A DNA stretch of 12,152 bases from Massilia sp. UBA2604 (GTDB lineage: Bacteria > Pseudomonadota > Gammaproteobacteria > Burkholderiales > Burkholderiaceae_D). The stretch spans positions 1 to 12,152 of the forward strand of contig DDKG01000231.1 of the NCBI GenBank assembly GCA_002339265.1. The letters run 5' to 3'. Shown here piece by piece: positions 1-6,928 of this stretch (position 1 is the stretch's first letter; each line of letters starts with the position of its first letter). The translations under genes were made by a program, and so were the position numbers. Under the pieces are notes generated by a model, which did not search any database, was not told the origin of the DNA, and saw only the letters and a program-made list of their open reading frames with translations.

Positions 1-527
1 GACGCCAGCTCGCGGTGCACCTGCGACTCGGTGGTGCGGGCGCCGATCGCGCCCCAGCTGACCAGGTCGGCGATGTACTGCGGGCTGATCACGTCGAGGA
101 ATTCGGTGCCGGCCGGCAGGCCCATCTCGTTGATGTCGCGCAGCAGTTCGCGCGCCATGCGCAGGCCGTCGTTGATGCGGAAGCTGTTGTCCATGTACGG
201 GTCGTTGATCAGGCCCTTCCAGCCAACCGTGGTGCGCGGCTTCTCGAAATAGACCCGCATCACGATCTCGAGTTCGCCGGCGAAGCGCTGGCGCTCCTTG
301 ACCAGCCGGCGCGCGTACTCGAGCGCGGCCTTCGGATCGTGGATCGAGCACGGTCCGATCACCACCATCAGGCGGTCTTCCTGGCCGTGCAGGATGCGGT
401 GCAGGTCGACGCGCGCGCCGGCGGCGGTCTGCTCGGCCTGCGGGGTCACCGGGAACTCGCGGATCAGGTGCGAGGGCGGCGTCAGTTCCTTCATTTCACG
501 GATGCGTAAATCGTCGGTGCGGGGCAT
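1..527 (-). CDS. aroG: 3-deoxy-7-phosphoheptulonate (DAHP) synthase, class I, partial (N-terminal part)
   Basis: Condenses phosphoenolpyruvate and erythrose 4-phosphate to DAHP, the committed first step of the shikimate pathway, in the cytoplasm. Only the first 175 codons are in the window; the gene runs off its left edge (family length is about 350 residues). Visible family signatures are GPCSIHDP at residues 58-65, with Cys60 at the position of the metal-binding Cys of E. coli AroG; VYFEKPRTTVGWKG at 92-105, with Lys97 in the active site; and RTTESQVHRELA at 164-175. The start at 527 is supported by the GGGAG ribosome site just upstream and by alignment of the N-terminus (PRTDDLRIREMKELTPP) with the family. 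The isozyme type (Phe- or Tyr-sensitive) cannot be read from this fragment, but the Phe-rich leader upstream suggests phenylalanine control. Confidence 0.97.
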   Translation of the reverse strand, partial: MPRTDDLRIREMKELTPPSHLIREFPVTPQAEQTAAGARVDLHRILHGQEDRLMVVIGPCSIHDPKAALEYARRLVKERQRFAGELEIVMRVYFEKPRTTVGWKGLINDPYMDNSFRINDGLRMARELLRDINEMGLPAGTEFLDVISPQYIADLVSWGAIGARTTESQVHRELA

Positions 528-570
528 GCTGGGACTCCCTTTGCTGTGCTGTGCTGGTCTTGTTCTGGAA

Positions 571-598
571 ATAAAAAAACCGCCATCGCTGGCGGTTT
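571..598 (-). terminator. Attenuator-type intrinsic terminator in the aroG leader
   Basis: On the minus strand AAACCGCCA and TGGCGGTTT form a perfect 9-bp stem closed by a GCGA (GNRA) tetraloop, followed by further T residues, so the RNA has a seven-U run. It lies between the leader ORF stop (621) and the aroG start (527), ending 44 bases before the start codon. A terminator inside a 5' leader, after a short Phe-rich ORF, is the hallmark of transcription attenuation. Its 5' arm (590-596) is exactly complementary to part of the leader ORF. Confidence 0.85.
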
Positions 599-664
599 GT
601 CTGGATGCTGCCGGGACGTTTTACTGCGCGTACCCGCCGCTATTCCACCGCCAGGGGCTGGAAT
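589..664 (-). promoter_or_regulatory. Competing leader structures: anti-terminator and pause hairpin
   Basis: Two mutually exclusive pairings are visible. Pairing 1:2 joins ATTCCA (664-659) with TGGAAT (647-642), extended by CC (657-656) with GG (649-648). Pairing 2:3, the anti-terminator, joins CTGGCGGT (654-647) with ACCGCCAG (596-589), eight perfect base pairs. The second uses the 5' arm of the terminator, so its formation prevents the terminator. A further 7-bp helix TACCCGC (687-681) with GCGGGTA (637-631) would enclose the Phe codons and reinforce the 1:2 fold. The pairings are read directly from the sequence; the switching behaviour is inferred from the classical trp/phe attenuation model. 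Confidence 0.7.
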
Positions 665-704
665 GGCTAAAGTAAAAAAAGCGGGTAAAGAAAGCGTGGC
701 GCAT
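621..704 (-). CDS. Phe-rich leader peptide upstream of aroG (pheL-like, 27 residues)
   Basis: A short ORF ATG...TAA lies wholly inside the aroG leader. It encodes 27 residues, with Phe at 5, 6, 9, 10 and 12, Tyr at 11 and 25, and Trp at 18 and 20. The run FFYF (codons at 680-669) directly precedes the 5' arm of the pause hairpin (664-659). Nine of 27 residues are aromatic. A weak ribosome site (GGACG) lies a few bases upstream and the predicted transcript start is about 20 bases before the ATG. The peptide is most likely not functional in itself: its translation would sense charged tRNA-Phe, as pheL does for pheA in enteric bacteria. It is not homologous in detail to any leader I can name. 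Confidence rests on the combination of ORF, terminator and alternative pairing. Confidence 0.8.
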   Translation of the reverse strand: MRHAFFTRFFYFSHSSPWRWNSGGYAQ

Positions 705-730
705 GATGTCGTCCGGGTTTGGTCGAATTG

Positions 731-760
731 ACTATAACAACAAGGCATGAAAGTTGGCAA
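731..760 (-). promoter_or_regulatory. Probable sigma70-type promoter of the aroG leader transcript
   Basis: On the minus strand TTGCCA (760-755) resembles the -35 consensus TTGACA (5 of 6) and TATAGT (736-731) resembles the -10 consensus TATAAT (5 of 6), with an 18-bp spacer. Transcription would begin near position 724, giving about 20 bases before the leader ORF and a leader of about 200 bases before aroG. No TyrR-like operator was recognised. Confidence 0.65.
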
Positions 761-1047: not shown

Positions 1048-3915
1048 ATGACTGAAACCCTGCTTTCCCGTACCGTGCGCCGCCTGTTCGCGGGAGGCGG
1101 CGCCGCCGGCCTGGCGCTCGCCGGCCCCGTGCTGGTGGCCCTTCCCCTACCCGCCCTCGCGCAGGAAGCCGCACCGGTCGCCCGCGTCGAAATCACCGGC
1201 TCGAACATCCGCCGCGCCCAGGCCGAGACCGCATCCAGCGTGCTCACCGTCAATCGCAACGACATCGAGCGCTCGGGCAAGACCACGGTGGCCGAGTTGC
1301 TGCAGACGCTGGCGGTCGACAACCAGGGCTCGGTGCCGATGAGCTTTGGCAGCGGCTTCGCGGCCGGCGCCTCCGGCATCTCGCTGCGCGGCCTGGGCAC
1401 GGCTTCGACCCTGGTGCTGCTCAACGGCCGCCGCATGGCGCCCTACGGCCTGGCCGACGACGGCCAGAAGGTGTTCGCCGACCTCAACGTGATTCCGACC
1501 GACGCCGTCGAACGGATCGAGATCCTCAAGGACGGCGCCTCGGCCATCTACGGCTCGGACGCGATCGCCGGCGTGGTCAACATCATCTTGCGGCGCAACT
1601 TCCAGGGCACCAGCGCGCGCGCGCTGTACGGCAGTGGCGAGGCCGGCGACGGCCAGCAGCACAACCTGGCCCTGGCCTGGGGCTTCGGCGACCTCGAGAC
1701 CGACCGCTACAACGTGCTGGTCAACGTCGAGTACAAGCACACACAAGAGATCTGGTACCGCGACCGCGGGAACCGCGACTACATCGGCAAGGTCGACCTG
1801 CGGCCTTATGGCTACTCGGCGCAAGAAGGTTTTGGCGGCACCGGCGCCATCACCGGCAACAACCAGTCCGGCAACGCGATCAACGGCAATGTGCGCAATC
1901 CCGACACGCTGGAGTACTACAACCGCGGCAACCTGGCCGGGCCCGGCTTCACGCGCACCTTCCCGGGCGCCGCCTGCGGCAACTTCACCAACCACCCGCA
2001 GGGCGATCCGGGCGGCGGCTGCGTGGTCGATTCGGGCTTCCTGTACAACCAGATCCAGCCCGACAGCGAGAACCTGTCGCTGTACACCCGCGGCACGCTG
2101 AAGCTGCAGGGCAATACCGAGGCCTATGCCGAACTCAATCTGTACAACAGCCTGGCCCAGACCAGCAGCACGCCGAACCCGATCGCGGCCAGCGTCGGCT
2201 ATCCCGGCGGCCCGGTCAGCAATGCCGGCGTCCAGCTCGGCGCCGAGCACCCCGACAACCCGTACTTCGGCCGCGCGGCGCGGCTGCGCTACCTGCCGTT
2301 CGACGTCGGCCCGCGCCAATCCGACATCTCCTCGAACTTCATCCGCGCCCTGTTCGGCGCGCGCGGCACCAGCGGCGCCTGGGACTGGGACACCTCGCTG
2401 CTCTACTCGCGCAGCAAGGTCGACAACGACCGCAACGGCTACCTGCAGCGCGACGCCACCTTCGCCCTGCTCGATCCGTCGCCCGAGAACGTGGCGGCGG
2501 CCCAGGCCAATCCGGGCTACCGCGCGCTGCCGGCCGGCACCTTCTGGCGCATCGCCGAGAGCGCGGGCCTGAATTCGCCGGCCGTGTACGCGGCCCTGTC
2601 GCCGACCATCTCGAACGATGCCGAGACCGAGATCGCCCAGGTCGACTTCAAGGCCACGCGCGAGATCGGCAAGCTGGCCGGCGGCGCGGTGGGCGTGGCG
2701 CTGGGCGCCGAGTTCCGCCACGAATCGGCGCGCCTGGATCCGACCGCCGGCACCGAGCGCGGCAACATCATCGGCCTGGGCTATTCGGCCTACGACGGTC
2801 AGCGCAACGTCACCGGACTGTACGGCGAGGTGCTGGCCCCGGTATGGCCCGGGGTGGAGGTCACCGGCGCCATGCGCTACGACCACTTCACCGACGTCGG
2901 TGACGCCTGGACGCCGAAGGTCGGCATCAAGTGGAATCCGCGGCGCGAGATCGCGCTGCGCGCCACCTGGGCCAAGGGCTTCCGGGCACCGAGTCCGGCC
3001 GAAAACGGCGTCGGCGGCCTGGCCGCCTTCGCCAACGCCACCGATCCGGTCCGCTGCGCGCTGGGCGTACAGACCGCCTGCAGCCCGGCGTCGATGTCGG
3101 TCATCACCTCGCCCAACCAGGACCTGAGCCCGGAGCGCTCGAAGAGCTGGAACATCGGCGCGATCTGGGATCCGCTGCCGCGCACCAGTTTCTCGCTCGA
3201 CTTCTGGAACATCAAGCGCAAGAACGAGATCAACCAGCAACAGATCGACGCCGCGATCGCCGCCGGCGACGTGGCGCGCGATCCGAGCACGGCGGTGCCA
3301 TTGACCCCGGGCGACCCGGGCGCCATCACGGCGGTGCTGGCCGAATACGTGAACTCGGCCGAGACCGAGGTGCGCGGCATCGACCTCGACGCGCGCCAGG
3401 GATTCGGGCTGCCGAACAACTGGGGCAACCTGACCTTCGACCTCAAGTACACCTATCTGGACAAATGGGAGCGCACCGAACAGGACGGCACCACGCGCGA
3501 CTATGCCGGCACCCACGGCAACTGCGACGTCAGCAACTGCATGGGCACGCCGGACCACAAGGCCAACCTGCGCGCGACCTGGGAGCGCGCCAACTGGCGC
3601 GTGTCGGCCAACGTCAACTACCGCGGGCCGATCGACAACACCTTCTTCAAGGACGATCCGGAAGGCTGCGCCAGCCATTTCGCCAACGGTGACGATGCGC
3701 CGAGCGATTGCGAACTGGCCTCGTTCACCACGGTCGACCTGGTGTTCCGCTGGAAGCCGCAACCGCGCTGGGAAATCTACGGCTCGGTCCAGAACGTGTT
3801 CGACAAGCAGGCGCCGCTCGATCCGCTGACCTATGGCGCGGTGTCGTATAACCCGCTGGACTATTACGGTGCGATCGGGCGGTTCTTCACGTTGGGGGCG
3901 CGGTACGCGTTTTAA
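1048..3915 (+). CDS. TonB-dependent outer membrane receptor (large, ligand unknown)
   Basis: A 955-residue outer membrane ligand-gated transporter, powered by TonB-ExbB-ExbD from the inner membrane. Residues 1-38 or 39 form a Sec signal peptide (two Arg, then a long Ala/Leu/Gly core, ending LPALAQ before EAAPV). A TonB-box-like VARVEITGS follows at 44-52. The plug domain spans about 60-182, with ISLRGLG at 111-117, LVLLNGRRM at 122-130 and GASAIYGSDAIAGVVNIIL at 163-181. The remainder is a beta-barrel ending in a C-terminal Phe (LGARYAF), the outer membrane insertion signal. Eight cysteines occur as four close pairs (310/325, 670/678, 826/831, 874/888), probably disulfides in surface loops. 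There is no N-terminal signalling (STN) domain. No neighbouring gene indicates the substrate; siderophore, oligosaccharide or peptide uptake are all possible. Confidence 0.93.
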   Translation: MTETLLSRTVRRLFAGGGAAGLALAGPVLVALPLPALAQEAAPVARVEITGSNIRRAQAETASSVLTVNRNDIERSGKTTVAELLQTLAVDNQGSVPMSFGSGFAAGASGISLRGLGTASTLVLLNGRRMAPYGLADDGQKVFADLNVIPTDAVERIEILKDGASAIYGSDAIAGVVNIILRRNFQGTSARALYGSGEAGDGQQHNLALAWGFGDLETDRYNVLVNVEYKHTQEIWYRDRGNRDYIGKVDLRPYGYSAQEGFGGTGAITGNNQSGNAINGNVRNPDTLEYYNRGNLAGPGFTRTFPGAACGNFTNHPQGDPGGGCVVDSGFLYNQIQPDSENLSLYTRGTLKLQGNTEAYAELNLYNSLAQTSSTPNPIAASVGYPGGPVSNAGVQLGAEHPDNPYFGRAARLRYLPFDVGPRQSDISSNFIRALFGARGTSGAWDWDTSLLYSRSKVDNDRNGYLQRDATFALLDPSPENVAAAQANPGYRALPAGTFWRIAESAGLNSPAVYAALSPTISNDAETEIAQVDFKATREIGKLAGGAVGVALGAEFRHESARLDPTAGTERGNIIGLGYSAYDGQRNVTGLYGEVLAPVWPGVEVTGAMRYDHFTDVGDAWTPKVGIKWNPRREIALRATWAKGFRAPSPAENGVGGLAAFANATDPVRCALGVQTACSPASMSVITSPNQDLSPERSKSWNIGAIWDPLPRTSFSLDFWNIKRKNEINQQQIDAAIAAGDVARDPSTAVPLTPGDPGAITAVLAEYVNSAETEVRGIDLDARQGFGLPNNWGNLTFDLKYTYLDKWERTEQDGTTRDYAGTHGNCDVSNCMGTPDHKANLRATWERANWRVSANVNYRGPIDNTFFKDDPEGCASHFANGDDAPSDCELASFTTVDLVFRWKPQPRWEIYGSVQNVFDKQAPLDPLTYGAVSYNPLDYYGAIGRFFTLGARYAF

Positions 3916-4080: not shown

Positions 4081-6765
4081 TCAACCACCAAAGTGGTAAT
4101 TCAACTCCACATACCCGGTCCGTCCCGCCGGGCTGTAACTGCCCACCGCATAATTCGGCCAGCCGCCGGTGGTGTCATGCTTGATGCGATCGAAGGCATT
4201 ATTGACGATGGCCGACAGTGTCAGGCGGTCATTGACGCGATACACGACGCTGGCGTTGACCAGGGTGGTCGGCGTCAGGTAATCGGTCTGCGCCGAGTTC
4301 GGGATCTTGCCGTAGCGGGTCGCGAACAGCGTCGACGACCAGGCGCCCGCGTTCCAGTTCAGGCTGGCGGCCAGCTTGTCCGGCCAATCCGAACTGGTGA
4401 GCGAATTGAGTTCGTCGCGCACCGTGTCGCCCGCAAACTGCTTCGAGCGGCGGGTCAGCGTTTTCGAGTAGTTGCCGCGCAGGGTGAAGGTCCCCAGCGA
4501 CGCCGTGCGCAGCGCATAGCGGGCGCTGACGTCGATGCCGCTGCTCGATTCCTGGGCCGCGTTGATCGGATTGACGCGGATCTCGCGGATCTCGCCCGGA
4601 CGCACCGGCGAGTTGGCGGCGTAGCGGGTGATGCGCGAGATCGTGTCCGCGCACAGCGTCGAGCCGATGTCCAGCGAGCCCAGGCGGCAGGCCGCTTCGT
4701 CGCGCAGCAGTTGGTCGGCCGACAGATTGGTCACCAGGTCGTCGATCTTGATATCCCAGTAATCGAGCGAGGCATCGAAGTTCGTGCTCGGCGACCAGAC
4801 GATGCCGGCGCCATACGATTTACCCTGTTCCGGTTTCAGGTCGGTGCTGCCGTACTGGACGTAGTCGGCGCCCGGCGAGTAGCTAGCGAATTCGCAGTTC
4901 GCCAGCGGCTGGCCGGTGACGCCGCAGCGGTAGTGATCGGTGGTCGACGAGTAATAGCCGGTGCCGCGCGCCTTGTAGATGTAGTTCATGTCCGGCGCGC
5001 GGAAGCTCGTGGCGTAGTTGGCGCGCACCAGCAGCGCGCGCGTCGGCCGCAATTCCAGGCCGCCGGCATAGGTGAACTTGCCGCTGTCGCGCTCGGCGAA
5101 TTCATAGCGGTCGTAGCGCCCGGCCAGGGTTGCGGTCAGGATCTCGTGCAGCGGGATGTTCGCCTCGAGGCCGAGCGCATAGCGGTTGCGGGTGCCGGCG
5201 GTGACGGCGGTGTTCGGCGCCAGGTTGAAATACCCTTGATTGATGCGTTCGTCGGGCGCATTGGTAAAGCCCTGGCGGCCGGCCTCGGCCACCGCCGCCA
5301 GTTGCAGCGGGCCGGCCGGCAATTGCAGCACTTCGCCGTTGGCGCTGGCCGACACGGTATGGGTCCAGGATTCGTCATCGCTTTCGGCGTAACCAGTGAT
5401 CGTGCCGAACTCGTCCGGGGTCACGCGGGTCGCCAGGCGCGCCGGGTCCGGCGCGTAGATGGCGACGCCGCTCGCGTCCGTTCCCAGCCGCGGGCCGAGG
5501 AAGAAGCTGTCGATGTTCGACAGCGCGCGCGGGGTCTTGCCCTTGCTTTCGTACCACGAGGCGCTGTAGCCGGCTTCCCACTTCCAGCTGGTGCCGGGGA
5601 CGATGCCGCGCGCGCCGAGCGAGGCGGCGACCGCGCCGTCTTCCCAGAAGCGGTTGTAGCGCGACAGGCCGCCCATCTCTTCCGGAGAAATGTAGCGAGT
5701 CCAGGCTTCGTAGTGACCGGTGTTCTGGTTCAGGAAATAGCTGTTGTTCAGGGAATTCGAGGTCCACGACGGACCGCGCGTGTTGTTGACGGTGTCATTC
5801 CGTCCCAGCAGGACGTCGGCGAACAGCGTCGTGTTCTCGTCGAGCTCGTAGGTGGCGCTGCCGAAGGCGTTCTTGCTCTGGTTTTGCGTCTGCACCGACC
5901 AGTAGGTGGGGCTGACCTTGTTGCTGGCGCAGTAGTTGCCGGTGCGCGAGGCGTAGTTGACGACGCTGCCGCCGAACAGGTCGCCGAGCTGCCCGCAGGT
6001 CGCGCCCGGATCGATGTAGCGGCCCACGGTGGCGTCGCGCCGCGACAGCATATTGGTCGGCGTGCCCGAACGTTCGGCCATGAAGTCGCGCTGGTAGGCG
6101 CCGATCGGATTGCGTTCCGAGAACTCGAGGGCGAACACCGTGCTCAGGCGGTCGAACTGCCTGCCGCCGGTGACCTGCACGCGCCGCTCCGATCCGCCGC
6201 CGCGGCTGGTGCCACCCAGTTTCACGTTCACGTCGACGCCCTCGGCCTTCTTCTTGAGGATGATGTTGACCACGCCGGCGATCGCGTCAGAGCCATAGAT
6301 GGCCGAGGCGCCGCCCGACAGGATCTCGATGCGCTCCACGATCGACGACGGGATATTGGCCAGGTTGGTGAAGTTGACCGTGCCCTCGTAGGCGATCGGG
6401 AAGTCCGCAAGGCGCCGGCCGTTGAGCAGGACCAGCGTGTGGTTCGGCCCCAGGCCGCGCAGGCTGATGGTATTGGCCGACGGCGTGAAGGTATTGCCGA
6501 AGTCGGCGCCCTGCACGAAGCCGCTGTTCTGCACCTGGTTGTTGAGGGCATCGAACACGTTCTTGTAGCCCTGGCGCGTGATGTCGTCGCCGGTGATGAC
6601 GGTGACGGCGGATGGGCCTTCGAGCGAGGTGCGCGCGATGCGCGAACCGGTGACGACGACCGACGCCGGCGCGGCGGCGGGTATGTCGGCGGAGGTCGAT
6701 GCCGTCTGGGCCTGGGCGAGCAGCGGCGCGCCGATGGCGGCGGCCAGGAAATAGATATGTTTCAT
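4081..6765 (-). CDS. TonB-dependent outer membrane receptor (second, ligand unknown)
   Basis: An 894-residue outer membrane transporter of the same broad family as the converging receptor at 1048-3915. The signal peptide is residues 1 to about 19 (MKHIYFLAAAIGAPLLAQA). A TonB-box-like ASVVVTGSRI lies at 34-43. The plug covers about 47-170, with ISLRGLGPNHTLVLLNGRR at 100-118 and GGASAIYGSDAIAGVVNIIL at 151-170. A long barrel follows, ending YVELNYHFGG; an aromatic residue lies near the end but is not terminal. Six cysteines form three close pairs in predicted loops (CGQ...YCAS, RCGV...NCEF, ACRL...LCAD). The ribosome site is poor (only AAGAA-like) and the bases just before the ATG sit in an 11-bp inverted repeat. 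No partner gene reveals the substrate; a partial Fur-like match upstream hints at iron control. Confidence 0.93.
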   Translation of the reverse strand: MKHIYFLAAAIGAPLLAQAQTASTSADIPAAAPASVVVTGSRIARTSLEGPSAVTVITGDDITRQGYKNVFDALNNQVQNSGFVQGADFGNTFTPSANTISLRGLGPNHTLVLLNGRRLADFPIAYEGTVNFTNLANIPSSIVERIEILSGGASAIYGSDAIAGVVNIILKKKAEGVDVNVKLGGTSRGGGSERRVQVTGGRQFDRLSTVFALEFSERNPIGAYQRDFMAERSGTPTNMLSRRDATVGRYIDPGATCGQLGDLFGGSVVNYASRTGNYCASNKVSPTYWSVQTQNQSKNAFGSATYELDENTTLFADVLLGRNDTVNNTRGPSWTSNSLNNSYFLNQNTGHYEAWTRYISPEEMGGLSRYNRFWEDGAVAASLGARGIVPGTSWKWEAGYSASWYESKGKTPRALSNIDSFFLGPRLGTDASGVAIYAPDPARLATRVTPDEFGTITGYAESDDESWTHTVSASANGEVLQLPAGPLQLAAVAEAGRQGFTNAPDERINQGYFNLAPNTAVTAGTRNRYALGLEANIPLHEILTATLAGRYDRYEFAERDSGKFTYAGGLELRPTRALLVRANYATSFRAPDMNYIYKARGTGYYSSTTDHYRCGVTGQPLANCEFASYSPGADYVQYGSTDLKPEQGKSYGAGIVWSPSTNFDASLDYWDIKIDDLVTNLSADQLLRDEAACRLGSLDIGSTLCADTISRITRYAANSPVRPGEIREIRVNPINAAQESSSGIDVSARYALRTASLGTFTLRGNYSKTLTRRSKQFAGDTVRDELNSLTSSDWPDKLAASLNWNAGAWSSTLFATRYGKIPNSAQTDYLTPTTLVNASVVYRVNDRLTLSAIVNNAFDRIKHDTTGGWPNYAVGSYSPAGRTGYVELNYHFGG

Positions 6766-6808: not shown

Positions 6809-6824
6809 TTGTCAGTACAAACGA

Positions 6825-6860
6825 ATTATTCTGAGCAACTTTATAAGAATAATGTTTAGC
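6825..6860 (-). promoter_or_regulatory. Possible operator with partial Fur-box similarity upstream of the receptor
   Basis: ATTATTCT (6825-6832) and AGAATAAT (6846-6853) form a perfect 8-bp inverted repeat with centres 21 bp apart, two DNA turns. The overlapping stretch 6842-6860 matches 13 of 19 positions of the Fur consensus GATAATGATAATCATTATC. The stretch is AT-rich, so part of the similarity may be chance. It lies 60-95 bases before the receptor start, a sensible operator distance. No confident -35/-10 pair was identified. Confidence 0.35.
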
Positions 6861-6875
6861 GCTGTCGGTGCAAAC

Positions 6876-6907
6876 AAAAACGCCCGGCGTACAGGCCGGG
6901 CGTTTTT
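6876..6907 (-). terminator. Intrinsic terminator after tldD
   Basis: AAAAACGCCCGGC and GCCGGGCGTTTTT form a perfect 13-bp stem around the loop GTACAG. It lies 22 bases past the tldD stop codon. Because it is flanked by A and T runs it could work in both directions, but only the minus-strand operon ends here; the receptor gene at 4081-6765 starts on its other side. Confidence 0.9.
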
Positions 6908-6928
6908 ATCGAAGAACGGAAAACCGGA

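Follow-up and report, generated by a model that had tools for sequence, protein, structure and literature searches.

Architecture of the aroG leader region

The window, the whole 12,152-nucleotide stretch of Massilia sp. UBA2604 DNA analyzed here, carries on its minus strand the first part of aroG, preceded by a GGGAG motif that we take to be Shine-Dalgarno-like. The 175-residue fragment encoded by this part matches Pfam DAHP_synth_1 (E 9.6e-49) and scores above the cut-off of NCBIfam aroFGH, identifying it as DAHP synthase. Upstream of the gene lie the elements collected in Table 1. The preliminary description of this DNA had listed four of them, and all four are present on the minus strand: a promoter-like pair (760-731), a 27-codon open reading frame (ORF) with FF and FFYF runs (704-621), a terminator with a GNRA loop and a U-tract before aroG (598-573), and an 8-bp alternative pairing (654-647 with 596-589) that excludes the terminator. 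In a pattern scan of positions 1-2400, the match at 760-731 was the sole promoter-like pair, with a mean of 0.3 in shuffled sequence.

Table 1. Features of the aroG leader region in the window
Feature	Position	Strand	Basis
Promoter-like pair TTGCCA (760-755), spacer 18, TATAGT (736-731)	731..760	-	Consensus match 10/12
Leader ORF, 27 codons, MRHAFFTRFFYFSHSSPWRWNSGGYAQ	621..704	-	ORF reading; aromatic-rich ORF at the same place in related loci
Control codons Phe5-Phe6	687..692	-	Read from sequence
Region 1 outer arm ACCCGC, Thr7-Arg8 codons	681..686	-	Pairs with 637-632 in fold
Control codons Phe9-Phe10-Tyr11-Phe12	669..680	-	Read from sequence; aromatic run conserved
Region 1 inner arm ATTCCAGCC	656..664	-	Pairs with 649-642 in fold
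Region 2 CTGGCGGT, antiterminator 5' arm	647..654	-	Fold
Inner partner GGTGGAAT, overlaps region 2	642..649	-	Fold
Outer partner GCGGGT	632..637	-	Fold and alignment
Intrinsic terminator, 9 bp: AAACCGCCA, GCGA (GNRA) loop, TGGCGGTTT at 598-577, T-tract to 573	573..598	-	Pattern and fold
Region 3 ACCGCCAG, partner of region 2 (antiterminator) or region 4 (terminator)	589..596	-	Folds
Shine-Dalgarno-like GGGAG before aroG	534..538	-	Read from sequence
aroG, first 175 codons of DAHP synthase, cut by window end; ATG 527-525	1..527	-	Pfam, NCBIfam

Two genes for TonB-dependent receptors (1048-3915, plus strand; 4081-6765, minus strand) separate tldD from the aroG leader in the window. Within the fetched stretches of 80 related loci, the end of tldD precedes aroG on the same strand in 55, mostly at a distance of 200-500 nt, so the receptor genes look like an insertion between tldD and the leader. 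A palindrome, TTGTCTGTACAA, is found at about 784-795 on the minus strand; it occurs in 3 of 92 leaders, with 0.15 expected, and is possibly an operator in the closest kin.

Predicted mutually exclusive folds of the leader RNA

In the window, the terminator has a folding energy of -14.4 kcal/mol (z -4.6). Terminator-like patterns are not rare in this stretch, with 2 found and 1.6 expected. When the whole leader is folded, the 1:2 hairpin and the terminator form together, with a z of -1.94 for the whole leader. In this fold UACCCGCU pairs with AGCGGCGGGUA as the outer helix, and inside it AUUCCAGCC pairs with GGUGGAAU. The 8-bp antiterminator CUGGCGGU:ACCGCCAG forms when the stretch 663-588 is folded alone, a stretch that starts after the first one or two bases of the inner arm and excludes the outer arm and region 4.

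Energy tests across related leaders gave different results for the two alternative pairings. Ranked against shuffles, the duplex of regions 2 and 3 is among the best 5% in 33 of the 54 leaders of Oxalobacteraceae type, in 27 of the 28 from Burkholderiaceae and in 13 of the 18 others. The outer 1:2 helix reaches this level in 7/30, 4/24, 0/28 and 0/18 leaders, by group. Because its energy is not significant in most leaders, the support for the outer helix comes from covariation in the window's clade.

The combination of parts was compared with chance by a detector requiring a short ORF with at least four aromatic residues in eight, followed by a terminator at leader distance. On both strands of the 12-kb window its single match was the aroG leader. 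It gave no match in 20 shuffled strands of the window, nor when the 420 nt preceding aroG were shuffled 1000 times.

Distribution of the leader among relatives

The 80 best matches of the AroG fragment among species genomes served as related loci. They were chosen by closeness to the query, and their genera belong mostly to Oxalobacteraceae (Massilia, Telluria, Janthinobacterium, Duganella, Rugamonas, Herbaspirillum, Collimonas, Undibacterium and others) and Burkholderiaceae (Burkholderia, Paraburkholderia, Caballeronia, Trinickia, Pandoraea and Mycetohabitans). In 79 of these 80 loci, aroG follows an aromatic-rich leader (78 by script and L051 by eye). The strict ORF-plus-terminator detector matched 73 of the 80 loci, and 1 of 80 on the reverse strand. 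Two main forms of the leader peptide were found, FFTxYFYFSxSxPxAVE(KR) and MSAKFYFYFFWHLRPLADREG. At the remaining locus, L027, aroG begins some 40 nt downstream of tldD and no leader or terminator was seen; the attenuator appears to have been lost there.

A wider sample consisted of 100 genomes drawn evenly from Burkholderiales, 74 of which had an AroG match. The seven weakest matches, from five genomes of which two had no other match, were left out, and 90 upstream regions from 72 genomes were examined. At least 22 of the 72 genomes carry the leader: 18 by the detector, three by eye (L095, L105 and L111) and one through the RNA model described below (L123). On the reverse strand the detector matched 0 of 90 regions, and in shuffled sequence 0 of 450. 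One of its 19 matches, L153, is doubtful; the same genome has a clear leader elsewhere, L122. No leader was found in the other 50 genomes of the sample. Relatives lacking the leader, which the preliminary description had named as evidence against its reading, thus exist in the form of L027 and these 50 genomes, while 79 of the 80 closest loci carry it. The leader is common yet far from universal in the order.

We built a covariance model, R1, from 48 Oxalobacteraceae-type leaders. R1 matched 54 of 60 genomes of the family (E <=0.01), 37 of 200 genomes of the order (E <=0.001) and 11 of 274 genomes of the class (E <=0.001). All 20 primary family matches examined are at aroG, as are all 10 order loci examined; among 10 class loci, five are at aroG and five are not. 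Six weak secondary matches in the family were considered as a second attenuated gene and rejected, with 0 of 6 at aroG.

Two further loci are recorded here as observations. In a small genome of the class, L225:1501-1632 carries a 33-residue ORF with MCSFFRFSRFYFKRFF and a terminator (R1 E 7.2e-5); this locus has no AroG match, and within about 800 nt there is no start of an ORF of 120 aa or more. Each of the first three genomes searched encodes another DAHP synthase (L084, L085 and L086), with 51-57% identity to the query fragment, and the 400 nt preceding these genes showed no aromatic leader.

Covariation and conservation of the RNA

Alignments A1, A2 and A3 comprise 48, 27 and 29 leaders chosen from the listed leaders. 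The preliminary description had suggested aligning the aroG upstream regions of relatives, and the outcome agrees with what it anticipated: beside the aromatic-rich ORF in 79 of 80 loci, the terminator covaries, the antiterminator is kept and one 1:2 pair covaries.

For the terminator, the pair beside the CCGCC/GGCGG core is A-U, U-A, G-C, G-U or U-G and is paired in 94 of 100 leaders, versus 73.5 by within-group shuffling, and none of 5000 shuffles reached the observed value. In the lower stem, 4 of 48 leaders have G-C in place of A-U at one pair. For the antiterminator, a GGCG element at the ORF end, sought by pattern, faces a CCGCC-like arm in 100 of 100 leaders. Its flanking base is paired in 58 of 100 leaders versus 49.6 by within-group shuffling, again not reached in 5000 shuffles, and is unpaired in most Oxalobacteraceae-type leaders. 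Within the 1:2 hairpin, 96.5% of the cells of the inner helix are paired and mostly invariant. The outer pair formed by columns 25 and 75 of A3 is G-C in 15, U-A in 8, C-G in 2 and unpaired in 4 of the 29 leaders of the window's clade. This covariation may explain the two codons, usually Thr and another, that interrupt the aromatic run.

Conservation extends to both sides of the control codons. A promoter consensus match of at least 9/12 precedes the leader in 61 of 91 leaders, versus 4.3% of shuffles; L048, with too little upstream DNA, was left out of this count. Shared ancestry is still contained in all these shuffle controls. Downstream of the aromatic run, the segment CTG GCG GA(T/C) CGA GAG is near-invariant in 22 Burkholderiaceae leaders even at third codon positions, which hardly vary there and therefore indicate that the RNA itself is kept.

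Natural frame shifts are consistent with this. Compared with L001, one base after SSP is missing from both the window and L004. The shifted peptides of these two continue WRWNSGGYAQ, and GGCGGTGGA is unchanged. L058 and L061 have comparable shifts in the other leader form, again with the RNA letters kept. As read from these sequences, the shifts alter the tail of the peptide and preserve the RNA. The parts of the leader, their mutual exclusivity, their conservation and their partial covariation are all evident at this level.

Amino acid specificity

The codons preceding region 2 in 100 leaders comprise 456 Phe, 218 Tyr and 48 Trp. Tyr codons are present in 96 of the 100 leaders, Trp codons in 46 and all three in 43. 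The window leader has five Phe codons and one Tyr codon in this segment, and its response is expected, from this composition, to be mostly to Phe; in L142, Phe is the sole aromatic residue.

The run FYFYF(F/Y)W, with Tyr as its second and fourth and Trp as its seventh residue, is kept in 22 of 22 tabulated Burkholderiaceae leaders. The codon table leaves out 6 of the 28 Burkholderiaceae leaders, which have another spacing or frame, and 47 of 54 Oxalobacteraceae-type leaders matched the anchor. Apart from one Phe to Tyr change, codons within the run vary solely between TTT and TTC and between TAT and TAC. Since the changes are nearly all synonymous, it is the aromatic amino acids that are kept. 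The sensor thus looks like a mixed aromatic one rather than a pure Phe one, an arrangement that would make sense because DAHP synthase feeds all three aromatic products.

Proposed mechanism

We propose that aroG is controlled by a ribosome-mediated transcription attenuator; where its transcript starts, that the ORF is translated, that ribosomes stall on it and that starvation gives readthrough are inferences, set out as follows. Transcription would begin about 20 nt ahead of the leader gene. With an ample supply of charged aromatic tRNAs, the ribosome would reach the end of the leader, region 2 would be masked or held in the 1:2 hairpin, and the 3:4 terminator would form, stopping transcription before aroG. 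When Phe is short, the ribosome would stall on the aromatic codons; if the sensor is mixed, shortage of Tyr, or of Trp in relatives with such codons, would have the same effect. The stalled ribosome would cover region 1 and leave region 2 free to pair with region 3, the terminator would not form, and aroG would be transcribed.

The spacing of the elements is compatible with this scheme. Given the size of the ribosome footprint, a ribosome with its A site on Phe12 would have its leading edge at about leader nucleotide 47, so that most of region 1 (41-49) would be hidden and region 2 (51-58) would be free. A ribosome finishing at the usual stop codon of the relatives would cover region 2. Relative to the unshifted form, the window's stop codon is displaced by 15 nt away from region 2, and termination here would therefore rest on the inner hairpin and not on masking at the stop codon. 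In both cases the terminator would form.

Weighing the alternatives

The attenuator is the best explanation of the sequence data, with a probability of about 0.9. One alternative is that the terminator is an ordinary one, serving as a readthrough guard or making a small RNA, and stands beside a chance ORF with no amino acid sensing. The chance frequency of terminator-like patterns in the stretch and the z of only -1.94 for the whole-leader fold would fit such a view, yet the amino acids of the aromatic run are conserved from genus to genus, and elsewhere the detector picks up this combination of ORF and terminator at no more than chance level; we consider this alternative scarcely credible. 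It is also highly improbable that a DNA-binding repressor such as TyrR mainly controls aroG, with the leader of little effect. The aroG gene of E. coli is under TyrR, and the palindrome, which lies 91 nt ahead of the start of the leader both in the window and in L004 and occurs as a variant in L001, could serve as a repressor site. The palindrome is confined to those few leaders, however, and a repressor would leave the conserved leader and its pairings unexplained. The TyrR box has the consensus TGTAAA-N6-TTTACA, and with up to three mismatches allowed no match to it was found in the window.

Within the attenuator reading, the leader may sense Phe alone, the Tyr and Trp codons being tolerated passengers in a Phe run. 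Phe is the commonest codon across the 100 leaders and dominates in the window, L142 uses nothing else, and the enteric leader pheM likewise has one Tyr among its Phe codons. Against this stand the near-universal presence of Tyr and the retention of Tyr 2, Tyr 4 and Trp 7 of the run in every tabulated Burkholderiaceae leader despite synonymous codon changes. We therefore hold a Phe-only sensor to be rather unlikely. The preliminary description had proposed tRNA-Phe-dependent attenuation of DAHP synthase: attenuation of aroG through a leader peptide is strongly supported, while Phe alone seems too narrow. A real, conserved attenuator, with the appearance of a mixed aromatic sensor, is well supported by the sequence comparison.

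Through ribosome reading of the leader, this layout probably gives the cell a measure of its aromatic amino acids. It predicts how many soil, plant-associated and opportunistic bacteria set flux into these amino acids, in departure from the textbook case of E. coli. The analysis pinpoints codons and base pairs that can be changed individually, and the natural frame-shift variants allow the part played by the peptide to be told apart from that played by the RNA.

Relation to known systems

Searches of a library of open-access PubMed Central papers listed no account of a betaproteobacterial aroG leader; the 2004 attenuation survey of Vitreschak and colleagues and the 2010 survey of Lopatovskaya and colleagues may contain the aroG leader, and priority is uncertain. 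In the main text of PMC2965389, PMC4603805, PMC5688073, PMC4833913 and PMC7563307, aroG is not named. PMC5343134 names it for the E. coli isozymes and for the predicted TrpR and TyrR regulons of gammaproteobacteria, and PMC5688073 reports 82 short 5'UTRs from processing or attenuation in Burkholderia cenocepacia.

The Rfam model RF01859 (Phe_leader) had no match in the window at E <=1, and 0 of 150 genomes of the order exceeded its cut-off of 55 bits. Among 10 loci searched, the leaders of L046 and L036 scored 32 and 30.5 bits with this model, below its threshold; the weak matches listed for genomes G010 and G046 lie elsewhere than the aroG leader. Sub-threshold Rfam matches at E <=0.1 occurred in at least 83 of the 150 genomes and were taken as noise. 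A match to Thr_leader in the window (6809-6910, plus strand, E 0.18, 26.4 bits, cut-off 55) was attributed to chance; the nearest large genes run the opposite way. No Rfam family matched near the leader in the window. With R1, there is a covariance model for this leader, which Rfam fails to pick up.

In enteric bacteria, pheL leads pheA and pheM leads pheST, each with a short Phe-run ORF, an intrinsic terminator and a competing antiterminator. The aroG leader resembles them in having a short ORF with Phe runs, an intrinsic terminator and a competing antiterminator, and differs in standing before aroG instead of pheA or pheST, in mixing Phe and Tyr codons (with Trp in 46/100), and in belonging, by its terminator, antiterminator and leader letters, to a different sequence family. 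The enteric leaders thrL (Thr, Ile) and ilvL (Ile, Val, Leu) are multivalent. Like them, the aroG leader by itself carries control codons for more than one end product of a branching pathway; unlike them, it concerns the aromatic amino acids and DAHP synthase.

In E. coli, TyrR and TrpR repress the genes for DAHP synthase (PMC5343134). This control involves the same enzyme and the same goal of end-product control, but acts through protein repressors at the DNA, whereas the aroG leader would act as an RNA switch read by the ribosome. We see an even chance that a leader widespread in Burkholderiales, of an RNA family absent from Rfam, monitors Phe, Tyr and Trp together (FYFYF(F/Y)W in Burkholderiaceae) and controls the first enzyme of the shikimate pathway by attenuation, one RNA doing the job that TyrR and TrpR do on separate isozymes in enteric bacteria.
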